This document shows positions 1,614 through 20,725 of a stretch of 32,038 nt of DNA, one piece after another (the first letter of the stretch is position 1; each line of letters begins with the position of its first letter). A model generated the notes under the pieces. The model was given only the letters and a program-made list of their open reading frames with translations. It ran no database searches and had not been told where the DNA came from. A program made the translations under genes and the position numbers. Source of the DNA: Desulfurococcaceae archaeon (GTDB lineage: Archaea > Thermoproteota > Thermoprotei_A > Sulfolobales > NBVN01); assembly GCA_020833255.1 (NCBI GenBank), contig JAJHQR010000014.1, positions 1 through 32,038 on the forward strand. The letters run 5' to 3'.

Positions 1614-2017
1614 TGAGATTTAGTCAATTCATCGACCTAGCCCTAGTGATACTGCTGATAGCTATCTTAACACTCGCTCTGACCGGCACACTCACGCTAG
1701 CGGTCGTGGAAGGCAAGTCTATGGAGCCCTTGCTCTGGACCGGGGACGTGGTGATAGTATATAAAACTAGTGAGATGAGGGTAGGTGATGTAGTGATATA
1801 TGAGGGTAGGGGAAACTACGTAATACATAGAATAATTGAAATCCGCGATAACTGCTACGTCATCAAGGGAGATAACAACGCTCTACCAGATGGGTGCATA
1901 CCTAAAGAACTAGTAACAGGGAAGGTGTTAAGTATAGGGAGCTCAGTCATTAAAGTGCCTGGAATAGGGTACCTAACCCTCCTCATCAGAAGTTTATGGG
2001 AACGAGTCATGACCTAG
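1613..2017 (+). CDS. Archaeal (Sec11-type) signal peptidase I, S26B family
   Basis: N-terminal TM segment, VEGKSMEPLLWTGDVVIV, YVIHRIIEI, CYVIKGDNNALPD motifs. Confidence 0.88.
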   Translation: MRFSQFIDLALVILLIAILTLALTGTLTLAVVEGKSMEPLLWTGDVVIVYKTSEMRVGDVVIYEGRGNYVIHRIIEIRDNCYVIKGDNNALPDGCIPKELVTGKVLSIGSSVIKVPGIGYLTLLIRSLWERVMT

Positions 2018-2059
2018 AGACGCGTTCTTAATGGTTTCCAGCCGTTAACAAGACCCGAG

Positions 2060-2211
2060 GATCCCTACCGTTTCTCAGCAGATAGTGGTTCATTTGTTTG
2101 TTCCCCACCATCTGCTTCTCAACGGTCTCCCCGAGCCCGCTCACCGCAGTGGCTCCCCTCTAGTTGCCTAGGGTTCACAGCCTCTACGGGTCTCGGAAAC
2201 CCGGAGTCACC
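2060..2211 (-). ncRNA. Candidate structured ncRNA, copy 1 of an inverted pair flanking topoisomerase IA
   Basis: Minus-strand RNA from about GGUGACUCC (2211). Contains the 58-nt hairpin CCGUU-GAGA-AGCAGAUGGUGG-N16-CCACUAUCUGCU-GAGA-AACGG (2068-2125) and a homologous UGAACC..CUAGGC block (2164-2179). Paralog of 4524-4697. Ends approximate. Confidence 0.7.
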
Positions 2212-2381
2212 AATTAATTCATAAGCTAAAGCTTAATAAACCTTACTAAGGACTCTAATAAAACTATGAAGAGATATGGATTAGACAGACATGTTACATT
2301 AACACACCCCACAACATTAAGAAACCTAAACATTAATGAATATGAACATTACAAACGATTATGAAAATCGAAACAGCCCCT
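2068..2381 (-). repeat. Inverted duplicated segment, copy 1 (topA 3' end + spacer + ncRNA)
   Basis: Collinear and inverted relative to 4437-4697: GGGGCTGTTTC...stop, then TTTATTAAG, TGAACCnCTAGGC and the 58-nt hairpin. Confidence 0.6.
2228..2240 (-). promoter_or_regulatory. TATA-type promoter for ncRNA copy 1 (TTTATTAAGCTTT)
   Basis: Located about 25 nt upstream of the inferred RNA start; matches TTTATTAAGTTTT in front of copy 2. Confidence 0.55.
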
Positions 2382-4397
2382 CCTAGATAGAAGTAGCTCA
2401 GCTACTTCCTTAACGTACTTACCGCTAGACTTAAGCGTCAAGACCTTATTAAGAAATTCCACGAAGGAGATCTTAGTTTTCTTACTCCACGCCTCGTAAG
2501 CCTCTCTTAACCTCTCATAAGCTATTCCGTGAAACCTGCATAACCTCAACCCCTCATAACTGAATTCTGCGAGTCTCTGGCAGATTACGCACGACGCGTC
2601 ACCGCTGTTAAGACCTGCCAACCTCCTCAACTCGTTAACAGACTCATCACTCTCTAGGAGTTTCTTGATGTTGATTAGCCTGGGTTTCAACACGGACGCG
2701 ACCTCCCTCACCACCTCGTCCCTGCTTAACTCTCCTGTAATTATCTTGTCGAGCTTCTCTTCTACCTCACGCGTTAACTGAACACTGGATAGTTCCGAGA
2801 AGAGGTTGGTTGATATCGTGGAGACGACGCTACCCAACTCCGTAATATCGATCCCGGAAGTTGTTTGCTTAAGATACCCGCGCTTAAATAAGGTCTCGAT
2901 TATCTCAGCTCTCGTAGCCTCAGTACCGATCCCCGACCTCTCCATCCATTTAAGTAAGGACGACTTAGTGTAAGCGTCTGAGGGCTTGCTGAAAGTCTTA
3001 ACCACCCTCACGTCAAGTATCGGCACTTCCTCACCTAACCTCAAAGAAAACTTCTTTAAAGTACCTACCTCTCCGTATTCATATATCTTCAACCACCCGC
3101 CCCTCAACAACTCTCTCGAAGTAATCACTAACTCGAGATCAAGCACTCTCAAAACATAGGTTGAGATTCTGAGTAAGGCTTCATCACTTAACGAAGCTAA
3201 GTACCTCCTCACTATTAAGTCATACACTACCCGCTCCCTATCCTTAAGAGGTTTTCTAGGTAGGTACCCTGTCGGGTGTATTGCCGGGTGTGCCGGATCT
3301 TCCCTAGGCCCCTCCGCAGGAGCTAGCGAAGGCTTCTTAAGCAACTCGCTAACGTACTCTCCGTAACCCTCTAGATTAGATAAGCTCCTCAATATAGCTC
3401 TATGGTTAAGTGTTTTAGGTAGTTTCTGCGAGTTTGTTCTAGGATAACTTATGAGTTGGTCTAGGTAGAGTGACTCAGCAATACTTAACGTCAGGGCAGG
3501 AGATATCTTAGCTACTCTGTAAGCCTCGTACTGCAGATCCGGCAAGTTGAAGGGGGGCGGCGGCCTCAGGACCTCTGTCCTGGACTTAACGTCCACCACC
3601 CTCGCTTTACCAACCCTCTCGATAGCGAGCTTCAACCTATTAGCTTCCTCCTCGGTAAGATCCTTACCGAAATCACTCCTTATACTCAACTCCTCGCTCC
3701 CGACCCTCAACTTCAGGGAGATACTGAACTTTATTTCCGGAACGAAACACTCCCTCTCAACATGTTTCTTGAAGACCTCTATCAGGGTAGGTGTCTGAAC
3801 CCTGCCAGCACTCAAGATCTTGAAACCTCCGAAAACCTTCTTATAGAAACTCATGAGAGCTCTGCTAACGTTAATCCCCCATATCCAGTCTACCTCATGC
3901 CTGCACAAGCCAGCCTCAACCATCCTCAAATCCAGCGGTTGGAGATTTCTGAAAGCACTCACTAACTCTTCCTTAGTTAGGGAAGAGAACTTAGCTCTCC
4001 TAGACCTGCTTAAGTCACCGAAATGCTTGATTATTAGGTAGCCTATGACCGACCCCTCAATATCGTAATCACACGCGTTAACGTACTCGCTAGCCCCCCT
4101 AGCCAAGCTCTTCAAAACCTCGAAATACTTGCGTGCGTGCCTACTCCTCCTCTCAACCAACCACCTAGGAACCCACCTATAAGTAAAGACCGGGAATCCC
4201 CTCTCCTCAGTATCTAGAGAGAATAGGTGACCAACCGCCGGAGCCACTAAAAACCTACGTCCCTCGAAGAAACCCTCCCAAACCCTAACACCGTTCACCA
4301 CCCTCTTACCACTCAGGTTTAGAGCAGCAGCTATCTTGTCAGCCGCCCTAGGCTTCTCAGCAATCACTAAAACGTACCCAGAGTCTCTCAACTTCAT
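2349..4397 (-). CDS. topA: DNA topoisomerase IA (TopA/topoisomerase III-like) with C-terminal CxxC/CxxH extension
   Basis: Toprim start YVLVIAEKPRAADKIA, NACDYDIEGSVIGY, active-site region LISYPRTNSQKLP, GIGTEATRAEIIETLFKRGY. Confidence 0.93.
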   Translation of the reverse strand: MKLRDSGYVLVIAEKPRAADKIAAALNLSGKRVVNGVRVWEGFFEGRRFLVAPAVGHLFSLDTEERGFPVFTYRWVPRWLVERRSRHARKYFEVLKSLARGASEYVNACDYDIEGSVIGYLIIKHFGDLSRSRRAKFSSLTKEELVSAFRNLQPLDLRMVEAGLCRHEVDWIWGINVSRALMSFYKKVFGGFKILSAGRVQTPTLIEVFKKHVERECFVPEIKFSISLKLRVGSEELSIRSDFGKDLTEEEANRLKLAIERVGKARVVDVKSRTEVLRPPPPFNLPDLQYEAYRVAKISPALTLSIAESLYLDQLISYPRTNSQKLPKTLNHRAILRSLSNLEGYGEYVSELLKKPSLAPAEGPREDPAHPAIHPTGYLPRKPLKDRERVVYDLIVRRYLASLSDEALLRISTYVLRVLDLELVITSRELLRGGWLKIYEYGEVGTLKKFSLRLGEEVPILDVRVVKTFSKPSDAYTKSSLLKWMERSGIGTEATRAEIIETLFKRGYLKQTTSGIDITELGSVVSTISTNLFSELSSVQLTREVEEKLDKIITGELSRDEVVREVASVLKPRLINIKKLLESDESVNELRRLAGLNSGDASCVICQRLAEFSYEGLRLCRFHGIAYERLREAYEAWSKKTKISFVEFLNKVLTLKSSGKYVKEVAELLLSRRGCFDFHNRL

Positions 4398-4494
4398 CCT
4401 AAACTATAATCTAGCAAATCAAGAAATCTTAAATGTGGGGGGCTGTTTCAGTCTTCGTATTCACTTATAGTGTTTGTTGATGTTTAAGAAATTC

Positions 4495-4507
4495 TTTATT
4501 AAGTTTT
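4495..4507 (+). promoter_or_regulatory. TATA-type promoter for ncRNA copy 2 (TTTATTAAGTTTT)
   Basis: Shared with copy 1; inferred start about 25 nt downstream. Confidence 0.55.
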
Positions 4508-4523
4508 CTGTGAACAGGTAGTG

Positions 4524-4697
4524 GATGATCTCGATGAGCTAGGTGAGGGGGACTCCTAGGGCCGTCTTCGGCGGAGGGAGGGTGGGATGAACCACTAGGC
4601 GACCGCTCCCGCAGCACGGGGACGGCCTATAAGAAAGCCGTTGAGAAGTAGATGATGGGGCTCTAACAAATGAACTGCCATCTACTGAGAAACGGTC
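4524..4697 (+). ncRNA. Candidate structured ncRNA, copy 2 of an inverted pair flanking topoisomerase IA
   Basis: 58-nt hairpin CCGUU-GAGA-AGUAGAUGAUGG-N16-CUGCCAUCUACU-GAGA-AACGG (4638-4695), upstream stem GGCCGUC/GACGGCC (4560-4566/4621-4627), block UGAACCACUAGGC (4588-4600). Confidence 0.7.
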
Positions 4698-5804
4698 TCA
4701 AGCAATCACTGGCAGGGTTAGTAAGAGTAGGAGAGCGTATAAGGAGCTGAAGAGTGCCTTATCCCTTACTTCCAGTCTTGAGTTTAGGTTAGCAACCCCG
4801 TAGTGCGGGGCCCTGCCGGAAATAAGCCATGCTAAAACGCTGAAAACACCTAGCCAAAGAAGGTTTGGCTGAATAAAAGATATCACTATGCTCACAGCTA
4901 TAATCACGTGGGACAGCGTTGAGTGCACCCTGACGTTAGTTAGGGACCGCATCACGTGTCCGCCGTCTAACTGACCTATAGGGAGTAAGTTAGCGAAATG
5001 CACTAGTAAGAGGAACCAGGCAGCCATAGCGATAGGGCTGAGGAGAACCACCTCCCTAGGCTCTATTAGTAAGGTTAGTAATGGAACAACCCTGAGCTCA
5101 CTGATTAACCCGGCTTCTAAAGCCTTCTGCGCGACGTATTGCGGGATCCTCGGGGACGTGAGGTAGGAAAAGACGTAGAGGATTGCGGAGAGCGTGACAC
5201 CTGCTAGAGGACCTGAAATACCTACTAAAGCAAGCCCTCTCATGTCTTTAGGAGGGTGATGCGATCTTATGAAAGCTCCGAAAGTACCGACAGGAGATAT
5301 GAGGGGGGCCGGTATAGGTAATGGGTAAGTCACCGGAATCCCGGCACGCCTACTCACGACGTAATGACCTAACTCGTGACACATTAAGGGAGCTAAAACA
5401 CCTACCAAGAAACTTAAGGTGCCGACGAGAGGCTCGATTAGAGGTATCCCGACACCGAATCTCCCATTAAGTTCCTCAGCTATAGAATTATAGTTAGTTA
5501 TGGTGAAATAACCTGTGACAGCCACTGAAGCCGCGGTGACTAGAAATAATATTAGAAACTGTGATGAGGGCTTCTTAAAAGTCGCTGGCTTCTTACTAAC
5601 CCTGAGGAAATTCATGCCTTTACTACTAAACATTATTACTGAGTAGCCCCTAGGCACTAACTCATCGTAGACTTTAGAGAAAGCATCGTTTAAATCCAGG
5701 CCAGGCAATGCCTCAACTAAAAACTCGAGGATGTTCTCGTCTTCGTGCGTGAGGGTGTAGGTGAAGTACCTGGAAATTAAGTACTCTAACTCCCCACTAC
5801 TCAT
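4698..5804 (-). CDS. Membrane metalloprotease, site-2 protease (M50) family
   Basis: HELGHYVVSRRAG zinc motif, LLPIGQLDGGHVMRSL, multiple TM segments. Confidence 0.9.
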   Translation of the reverse strand: MSSGELEYLISRYFTYTLTHEDENILEFLVEALPGLDLNDAFSKVYDELVPRGYSVIMFSSKGMNFLRVSKKPATFKKPSSQFLILFLVTAASVAVTGYFTITNYNSIAEELNGRFGVGIPLIEPLVGTLSFLVGVLAPLMCHELGHYVVSRRAGIPVTYPLPIPAPLISPVGTFGAFIRSHHPPKDMRGLALVGISGPLAGVTLSAILYVFSYLTSPRIPQYVAQKALEAGLISELRVVPLLTLLIEPREVVLLSPIAMAAWFLLLVHFANLLPIGQLDGGHVMRSLTNVRVHSTLSHVIIAVSIVISFIQPNLLWLGVFSVLAWLISGRAPHYGVANLNSRLEVRDKALFSSLYALLLLLTLPVIA

Positions 5805-20614: not shown

Positions 20615-20725
20615 TGGCGCCGCGGCCGGGATTTGAACCCGGGTCACGGGCTTTCCACGCATGCCCCCATCTCTTAGGAGGCACTCGACAGGCCCGCATA
20701 CTAGGCCGGGCTATACTACCGCGGC
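20615..20725 (-). tRNA. tRNA-Asp(GTC) with 33-nt intron (20653-20685) after position 37; CCA encoded
   Basis: GCCGCGG/CCGCGGC acceptor, CGGGC/GCCCG anticodon stem, CUGUCG loop, CCGGG UUCAAAU CCCGG T-arm, G discriminator plus CCA; intron contains GCCUCC/GGGGGC helix. Confidence 0.95.

Follow-up and report, generated by a model that had tools for sequence, protein, structure and literature searches.

A TnpB-like element family of a Desulfurococcaceae archaeon with a divergent candidate guide RNA, and its mini-elements at topA

The window analysed here covers positions 1–32,038 (forward strand) of contig JAJHQR010000014.1 of a Desulfurococcaceae archaeon (GCA_020833255.1). Its type IA topoisomerase gene (topA) is flanked by two short elements, E1 at the 3′ end of the gene and E2 upstream of it. 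These mini-elements arose by internal deletion from an element of about 1.3 kb, which encodes a TnpB/Cas12f-like protein and a structured RNA divergent from it. With a probability of roughly 0.72, we propose that they belong to a TnpB-family (OMEGA-like) system in which the guide RNA lies upstream of tnpB and points away from it, and that the two element ends beside topA are part of this system.

Results

The match between 4437–4474 and topA is an element end

The original prediction had read 4437–4474 as a fossil of the topA 3′ end, left by an inverted duplication of a block holding this end and a noncoding RNA. The letters it quoted for 4441–4470 and for the final topA codons are correct. 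Positions 4439–4474 and the reverse complement of 2345–2380 were identical at 27 of 36 ungapped positions, and the local score of 27 for 4437–4474 was reached in 0 of 2000 dinucleotide shuffles, with a small margin over the top shuffled score (26). The repeat search recovered the same inverted pair as well as a longer inverted RNA pair, 2067–2125 and 4638–4696, with 85% identity. The similarity was thus real, but its proposed extent was incomplete, as it begins at GGGGCTGTTTC, 10–11 codons upstream of the topA stop. The order of end, TATA-like box TTTATTAAG and RNA was identical in both window copies, as had been noted.

The topA orthologues in two same-genus genomes (82% identical) end with LLLTKK* and LLLTRKK*, before the shared block, and no such element was found upstream of topA in these two relatives. 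The C-terminus in the window reads LLLSRR-GCFDFHNRL*, and when the topA flanks were rejoined with two G's of the G-run, LLLSRR was followed by TAG. The insertion site of E1 is the topA stop codon, and the C-terminal GCFDFHNRL* is now encoded by the element. The resemblance of the topA 3′ end to 4437–4474 is explained by this sister element, which supplies the last codons. The same end was present at nine other genome sites without an adjoining topA. The common block is therefore not a topA 3′ end, and no evidence was found for a second topA or for an inverted duplication. Positions 4437–4474 are the left end of the mini-element E2, which terminates two bases ahead of the next gene's stop codon. 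E1 and E2 are related elements that inserted independently, rather than one duplicated block. The other option of the prediction, a mobile unit containing the RNA, held, and its two copies are mutually inverted.

The mini-elements derive from a tnpB-bearing element

The genome of the window (1.33 Mb, 77 contigs) was searched with window positions 2000–4800. There were 31 matches, nearly all of them on the two blocks beside topA. The copies have a common left end GGGCTGTTTC and a common right end GAGAAACGG, and a long hairpin precedes the right end. The left end was present in eleven copies, and just one of these forms a topA end. The long copy (L014, 6127–7441) has the same two ends with a 363-aa open reading frame (ORF) between them. 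The left 123 nt of E1, spanning the end and the tnpB 3′ coding part, were 76% identical to this long copy (E = 8e-21), and MKRYGLDRH, encoded within 2245–2328, is a piece of the last catalytic motif of the TnpB-like protein. The short copies are therefore related to the long one by internal deletion. Like miniature inverted-repeat transposable elements (MITEs), they are short, multicopy and share their ends with a coding element. Terminal inverted repeats were limited to a short GTTTC/GAAAC in some subfamilies, and no target duplication beyond 1–3 G was seen.

RNA-only copies were far more numerous than tnpB copies in the genome of the window. In a closed genome (G054), 11 copies were found, and nine of them (L162–L170) were RNA-only, 96–99% identical and with one common deletion junction. 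Searches of plasmid and phage collections gave one weak plasmid match and zero phage matches. E1 is about 310 nt and E2 about 255 nt long, and E2 combines the same element ends with another RNA core. This second core (AGGGCCGUCUUCGGCGGAGGGAGGGUGGGAUGA...) was observed at 4512–4640 of the window and at L011:3364–3502, L012:48–187, L016:1687–1778 and L260:3541–3576. Its copies keep the same element ends and 3′ hairpin, and no tnpB linked to this core was found. The genome of the window also carries an ordinary IS605-type element (Y1 transposase and the start of tnpB) and an IS607-type element with a serine recombinase and a zinc-finger TnpB (L112, L113).

The element protein is probably a divergent TnpB/Cas12 nuclease

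The 363-aa protein gave an AlphaFold model with a mean predicted local distance difference test score (pLDDT) of 88. The best Foldseek match of the model was AsCas12f (2e-12), and Cas12k, Fanzor2 and the ISFba1 TnpB were also matched. Sequence profiles gave only weak TnpB and Cas12f signals, the best of them to Cas12f, and a sequence search of the Protein Data Bank found no match. The RuvC residues D209 and E273 were conserved in 56 of 56 members each and D346 in 53 of 54, and the ratio of nonsynonymous to synonymous substitution rates (dN/dS) between relatives was about 0.2. The paired zinc-finger CxxC of the TNB domain, which is usual but not universal in TnpB, was present in 0 of 56 members. 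The protein is probably a divergent nuclease of the TnpB/Cas12 superfamily, its activity being suggested by fold and residues.

A structured RNA diverges from tnpB and ends at the element boundary

Upstream of tnpB, a conserved sequence (GGUGACCCCGGG...AACGG) points away from tnpB and ends at the element boundary. Its structure was evaluated on 28 aligned sequences with 500 shuffles. The drawn structure paired in 89.8% of cells, versus 73.9% after shuffling and 41–50% when slid. Both sides varied in 25 of 33 pairs, and no measure was equalled in the 500 shuffles. The covariation spans two domains, about 130 nt in total, and G-U pairs were frequent in the counted helices. The covariance model (R1) found 17 sites in the genome of the window, including both window copies.

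A TATA-like box was present in 82 of 111 copies (13.9 after shuffling), mostly 25–30 nt ahead of the RNA 5′ end, which is the spacing of archaeal promoters. In the 111 copies, sequence conservation halted at the RNA 3′ end, past which there is only a pyrimidine at +1 and then variable flank. No comparable hairpin was present in the sequence of the opposite element end, which lies about 40 nt from the tnpB stop, and no structured RNA was seen between this stop and the element end in the sequences read. The divergent RNA is the only structured RNA reaching an element end and is therefore proposed as the guide RNA.

Near the 3′ end of many RNAs, a CCGU-GAU-GA...GA-ACGG pattern of the kink-turn type was found. 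A C-stem followed by 3 nt and GA was present in 82 of 111 copies and GUGAUGA in 62 of 111, while the subfamily of the window has a GAGA/GAGA loop in place of the GUGAUGA pattern. The pattern suggests that the RNA may form a kink-turn and bind L7Ae. In several subfamilies (L023, L053–L062), a short palindrome, GGGGAATCCCC, possibly an operator, lies upstream of tnpB in the interval from its start to the shared TATA region.

RNA and tnpB co-occur

Of 197 genomes of the order, 71 carried homologues of the TnpB-like protein. The RNA model R1 matched 72 of these 197 genomes and 49 of 398 genomes of the phylum sample. Both RNA and tnpB were present in 52 of the 197 genomes, only one of them in 19 + 20, and neither in 106 (p = 9e-16). 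There were 67 tnpB loci in named genomes, including Ignisphaera, Zestosphaera, Aeropyrum, Pyrodictiaceae, Acidilobaceae, Caldivirga, Vulcanisaeta and others. At 57 of these loci the RNA was divergent from tnpB, the two being separated by a median of 60 nt. Among the other 10, seven had less than 50 nt of upstream sequence and three had partial matches.

Two further groups of sequences were noted. Genomes of family f11, probably Sulfolobaceae, carry distant protein homologues (about 35% identity) and gave no matches to the RNA model; these homologues may use another RNA. A contig labelled as a Thermococcus metagenome-assembled genome (NZ_JACDNS010000002.1, L246) carries a tnpB with a divergent RNA, reflecting either transfer between phyla or a binning error.

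Insertion sites and candidate mobilising enzymes

At the right junctions, the first flanking base was T or C in 98% of 111 copies, and no position beyond was strongly conserved. On the left side, the base before the element was G, a preference partly built in by the search pattern, and the one before that was hardly ever C. The frames restored at topA and at L176 fit an element GG...ACGG without target duplication, and the flanks of L053, judged by eye, agree. Where joining the flanks gave long ORFs in GC-rich genomes (L169, L058, L072), these were judged uninformative, as was a dppA-like case in L014, because its left flank was not the corresponding part of the gene. A solo element nested in a tnpB gene of the same family (L260:3441–3714) offers a natural comparison with a nearly empty site.

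The element contains no transposase and has no room for one. Y1 transposases did not track the RNA across the 197 genomes (p = 0.70), and mobilisation by an IS605 transposase was ruled out on this basis. Serine recombinases were found in 50 of 72 RNA-positive genomes and in 51 of 125 others (p = 1e-4; p = 6e-7 after excluding the group set aside as Sulfolobaceae). No serine recombinase gene lies inside the element, and the closed genome G054 gave zero Y1 and zero serine recombinase matches.

Table 1. Features of E1, E2 and topA in the window
Feature	Position	Strand	Evidence or remark
E1, mini-element at the topA 3′ end	2068..2378	-	92% identical over full length to G000:C36:9424-9737; ends common to the long tnpB copy
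E1 ends	left 2378, right 2068		exact left end uncertain by 1–3 G
E1 left end, last topA codons GCFDFHNRL*	2345..2380	-	same-genus orthologues; 76% identity with the long copy's left end
tnpB 3′ coding remnant (MKRYGLDRH) in E1	2245..2328	+	tblastn E = 0.003; DNA 76%/123 nt, E = 8e-21
TATA-like box TTTATTAAG of E1 RNA	2232..2240	-	about 25 nt ahead of the RNA 5′ end
E1 structured RNA, candidate guide RNA	2068..2211	-	covariance model R1 88.6 bits, E = 2.5e-21; structure z = -5.7
Predicted guide of E1 RNA	from 2067 downward		flanking DNA
E2, mini-element upstream of topA, orientation opposite to E1	4442..4695	+	87%/236 nt to G000:C56:3326-3558; alignment A4
E2 left end and flanking G-run	4437..4474	+	27/36 to the E1 left end, 0/2000 shuffles
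TATA-like box TTTATTAAG of E2 RNA	4495..4503	+	sequence; position relative to RNA same in sister copies
E2 RNA, 5′ end approximate	4525..4695	+	part 4586-4695 weak R1 match, 28.8 bits, E = 5.6e-6
topA-like type IA topoisomerase gene, 3′ end changed by E1	2349..4397	-	ORF; orthologues in 41/41 genomes

An Rfam scan of the window found no known RNA family apart from one tRNA at 20618–20725 (minus strand, 47.6 bits). ARAGORN does not call a tRNA there, and the span of 108 nt suggests an intron-containing tRNA.

Discussion

The position of the divergent RNA, its promoter-like box, its structure, its boundary and its co-occurrence with tnpB point to a guide RNA of the TnpB-like nuclease. In the proposed system, the transcript would run outward through the element end into the flanking DNA, so that each copy would produce a guide to the site of its own insertion. 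Cutting of the empty site by the nuclease, followed by repair with the occupied copy as template, would keep or restore the element. RNA-only copies, such as both of those beside topA, would use in trans the nuclease from an intact tnpB copy, and a transposase would act from elsewhere.

Several results weigh against this proposal. The protein family lies below all curated TnpB and Cas12 cut-offs of Pfam and NCBIfam; the best member reached 5.8e-6 to TIGR01766, and the protein of the window's genome scored 16.4 bits against a cut-off of 32. No tnpB of the family was detected in 20 of the 72 RNA-positive genomes, which are partly drafts, and E2 matches the RNA model only weakly. The insertion sites gave no clear transposon-adjacent motif. 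The nested insertion in L260 fits a different number of G's and breaks the boundary rule; the differing G counts therefore leave the element ends uncertain by 1–3 G.

Other explanations were considered for the same observations. That a block of topA 3′ end and RNA was duplicated in inverted orientation and a second topA then lost would account for the 36-nt match and for the kept order of end, promoter and RNA. This is hardly credible and was rejected, as the orthologous topA genes lack the block, nine further copies have the same end without topA, and the block matches a tnpB-bearing element. The hairpins might instead work as DNA, recognised by a transposase of a TnpB-only or IS200-like element, with a non-functional RNA. 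Hairpins are typical of IS200/IS605 ends, and mini-elements need just their ends for movement. However, the covariation covers two domains beyond the element end, G-U pairs are frequent in the helices, a promoter-like box stands at archaeal spacing ahead of the RNA, the opposite end has no comparable hairpin and Y1 transposases are unassociated with the RNA, which makes this explanation improbable. We consider it similarly hard to sustain, perhaps slightly more so, that the divergent RNA regulates tnpB or the element while the true guide RNA covers the tnpB 3′ end as usual. RNA and tnpB do share a short divergent promoter region, but the distance from the tnpB stop to the element end leaves little space and no structured RNA was seen in it, and RNA-only copies retain the RNA with its promoter-like box after losing most of tnpB.

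The mobility step alone is concerned by another possibility, compatible with the guide-RNA proposal, that an IS607-type serine recombinase moves the elements in trans with GG as the crossover core. Such genes are commoner in RNA-positive genomes, the elements begin with G and usually finish with GG, and the nested L260 insertion fits extra G's. On the other hand, G054 has its 11 copies without serine recombinase or Y1 matches, the frames at topA, L176 and L053 fit one extra G and not a 2-bp core, and the ends of the IS607-type element in the window's genome are visibly different. A serine recombinase is thus conceivable as the mover, and we lean against it. A more far-reaching extension of our proposal would be a separate Thermoproteota branch of RNA-guided nucleases, with a stand-alone divergent guide gene, a kink-turn beside the guide, RNA-only copies acting in trans and a TnpB-like protein that aids mobility. 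The last role is suggested because near-identical copies multiplied in G054 without Y1 or serine recombinase matches. As a whole, such a branch seems unlikely.

The RNA of known TnpB systems extends across one end of the element, and the flank that it enters serves as the guide; this RNA overlaps the end of the tnpB message, tying guide to nuclease. The system proposed here is of this known kind, TnpB with a guide RNA; it differs in its divergent RNA with a promoter-like box, the absence of a zinc finger, sub-threshold similarity and RNA-only copies. Archaeal MITE-like or palindrome-associated non-autonomous elements likewise occur as multiple short copies that lack internal parts of the full element, whereas the copies here retain a covarying RNA and a promoter-like box and could each still act. 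In IscB/OMEGA systems, the RNA is upstream of the protein gene, and IscB belongs to the Cas9 lineage. The RNA described here likewise lies 5′ of the nuclease gene, but on the opposite strand, and the protein has a Cas12/TnpB fold. Miniature Cas12f proteins gave the best fold match and the best weak profile matches, but the protein here has about 360 aa and no paired CxxC, and the element has no CRISPR array.

The TnpB7 of Saccharolobus islandicus, of the IS200/IS605 group, uses an omega RNA (right-end element RNA, reRNA) that is transcribed in the sense direction and overlaps the 3′ end of tnpB (PMC11043419). Both are small mobile elements with a RuvC nuclease of TnpB/Cas12 fold and a structured RNA reaching the element end or flank. 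In contrast to the S. islandicus system, the RNA here is upstream and divergent with its own promoter-like box, and a zinc finger, a Y1 transposase and a TTTAA-like target are absent. In IS607 elements with a RAGATH-18-derived reRNA, the RNA is located downstream of tnpB, and AGGAG or GAGGG serves as the target motif (PMC11061315). The stable pairing of a conserved structured RNA with TnpB is similar, and the ISFba1 TnpB is among the fold matches, but the RNA here is divergent and no AGGAG/GAGGG-type motif was seen. Searches of the open-access literature, whose coverage is incomplete, turned up no report of TnpB guide RNAs that diverge from tnpB; one may have been published earlier.

Pipelines using the curated models would probably overlook this protein family because of its scores below the cut-offs. 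Zinc-finger-free nucleases of 360 aa with a compact RNA from hot-spring archaea would be of interest for tool development. An RNA with its own place and promoter-like box resembles the arrangement of CRISPR-Cas loci, in which guide and effector are encoded separately. Should the RNA be a guide, the family would be a natural example of a transposon-borne nuclease that is no longer coupled to its guide, and RNA-only copies would act in trans with an intact tnpB. The excess of RNA-only over tnpB copies thus raises the testable question of trans-acting guide RNAs.
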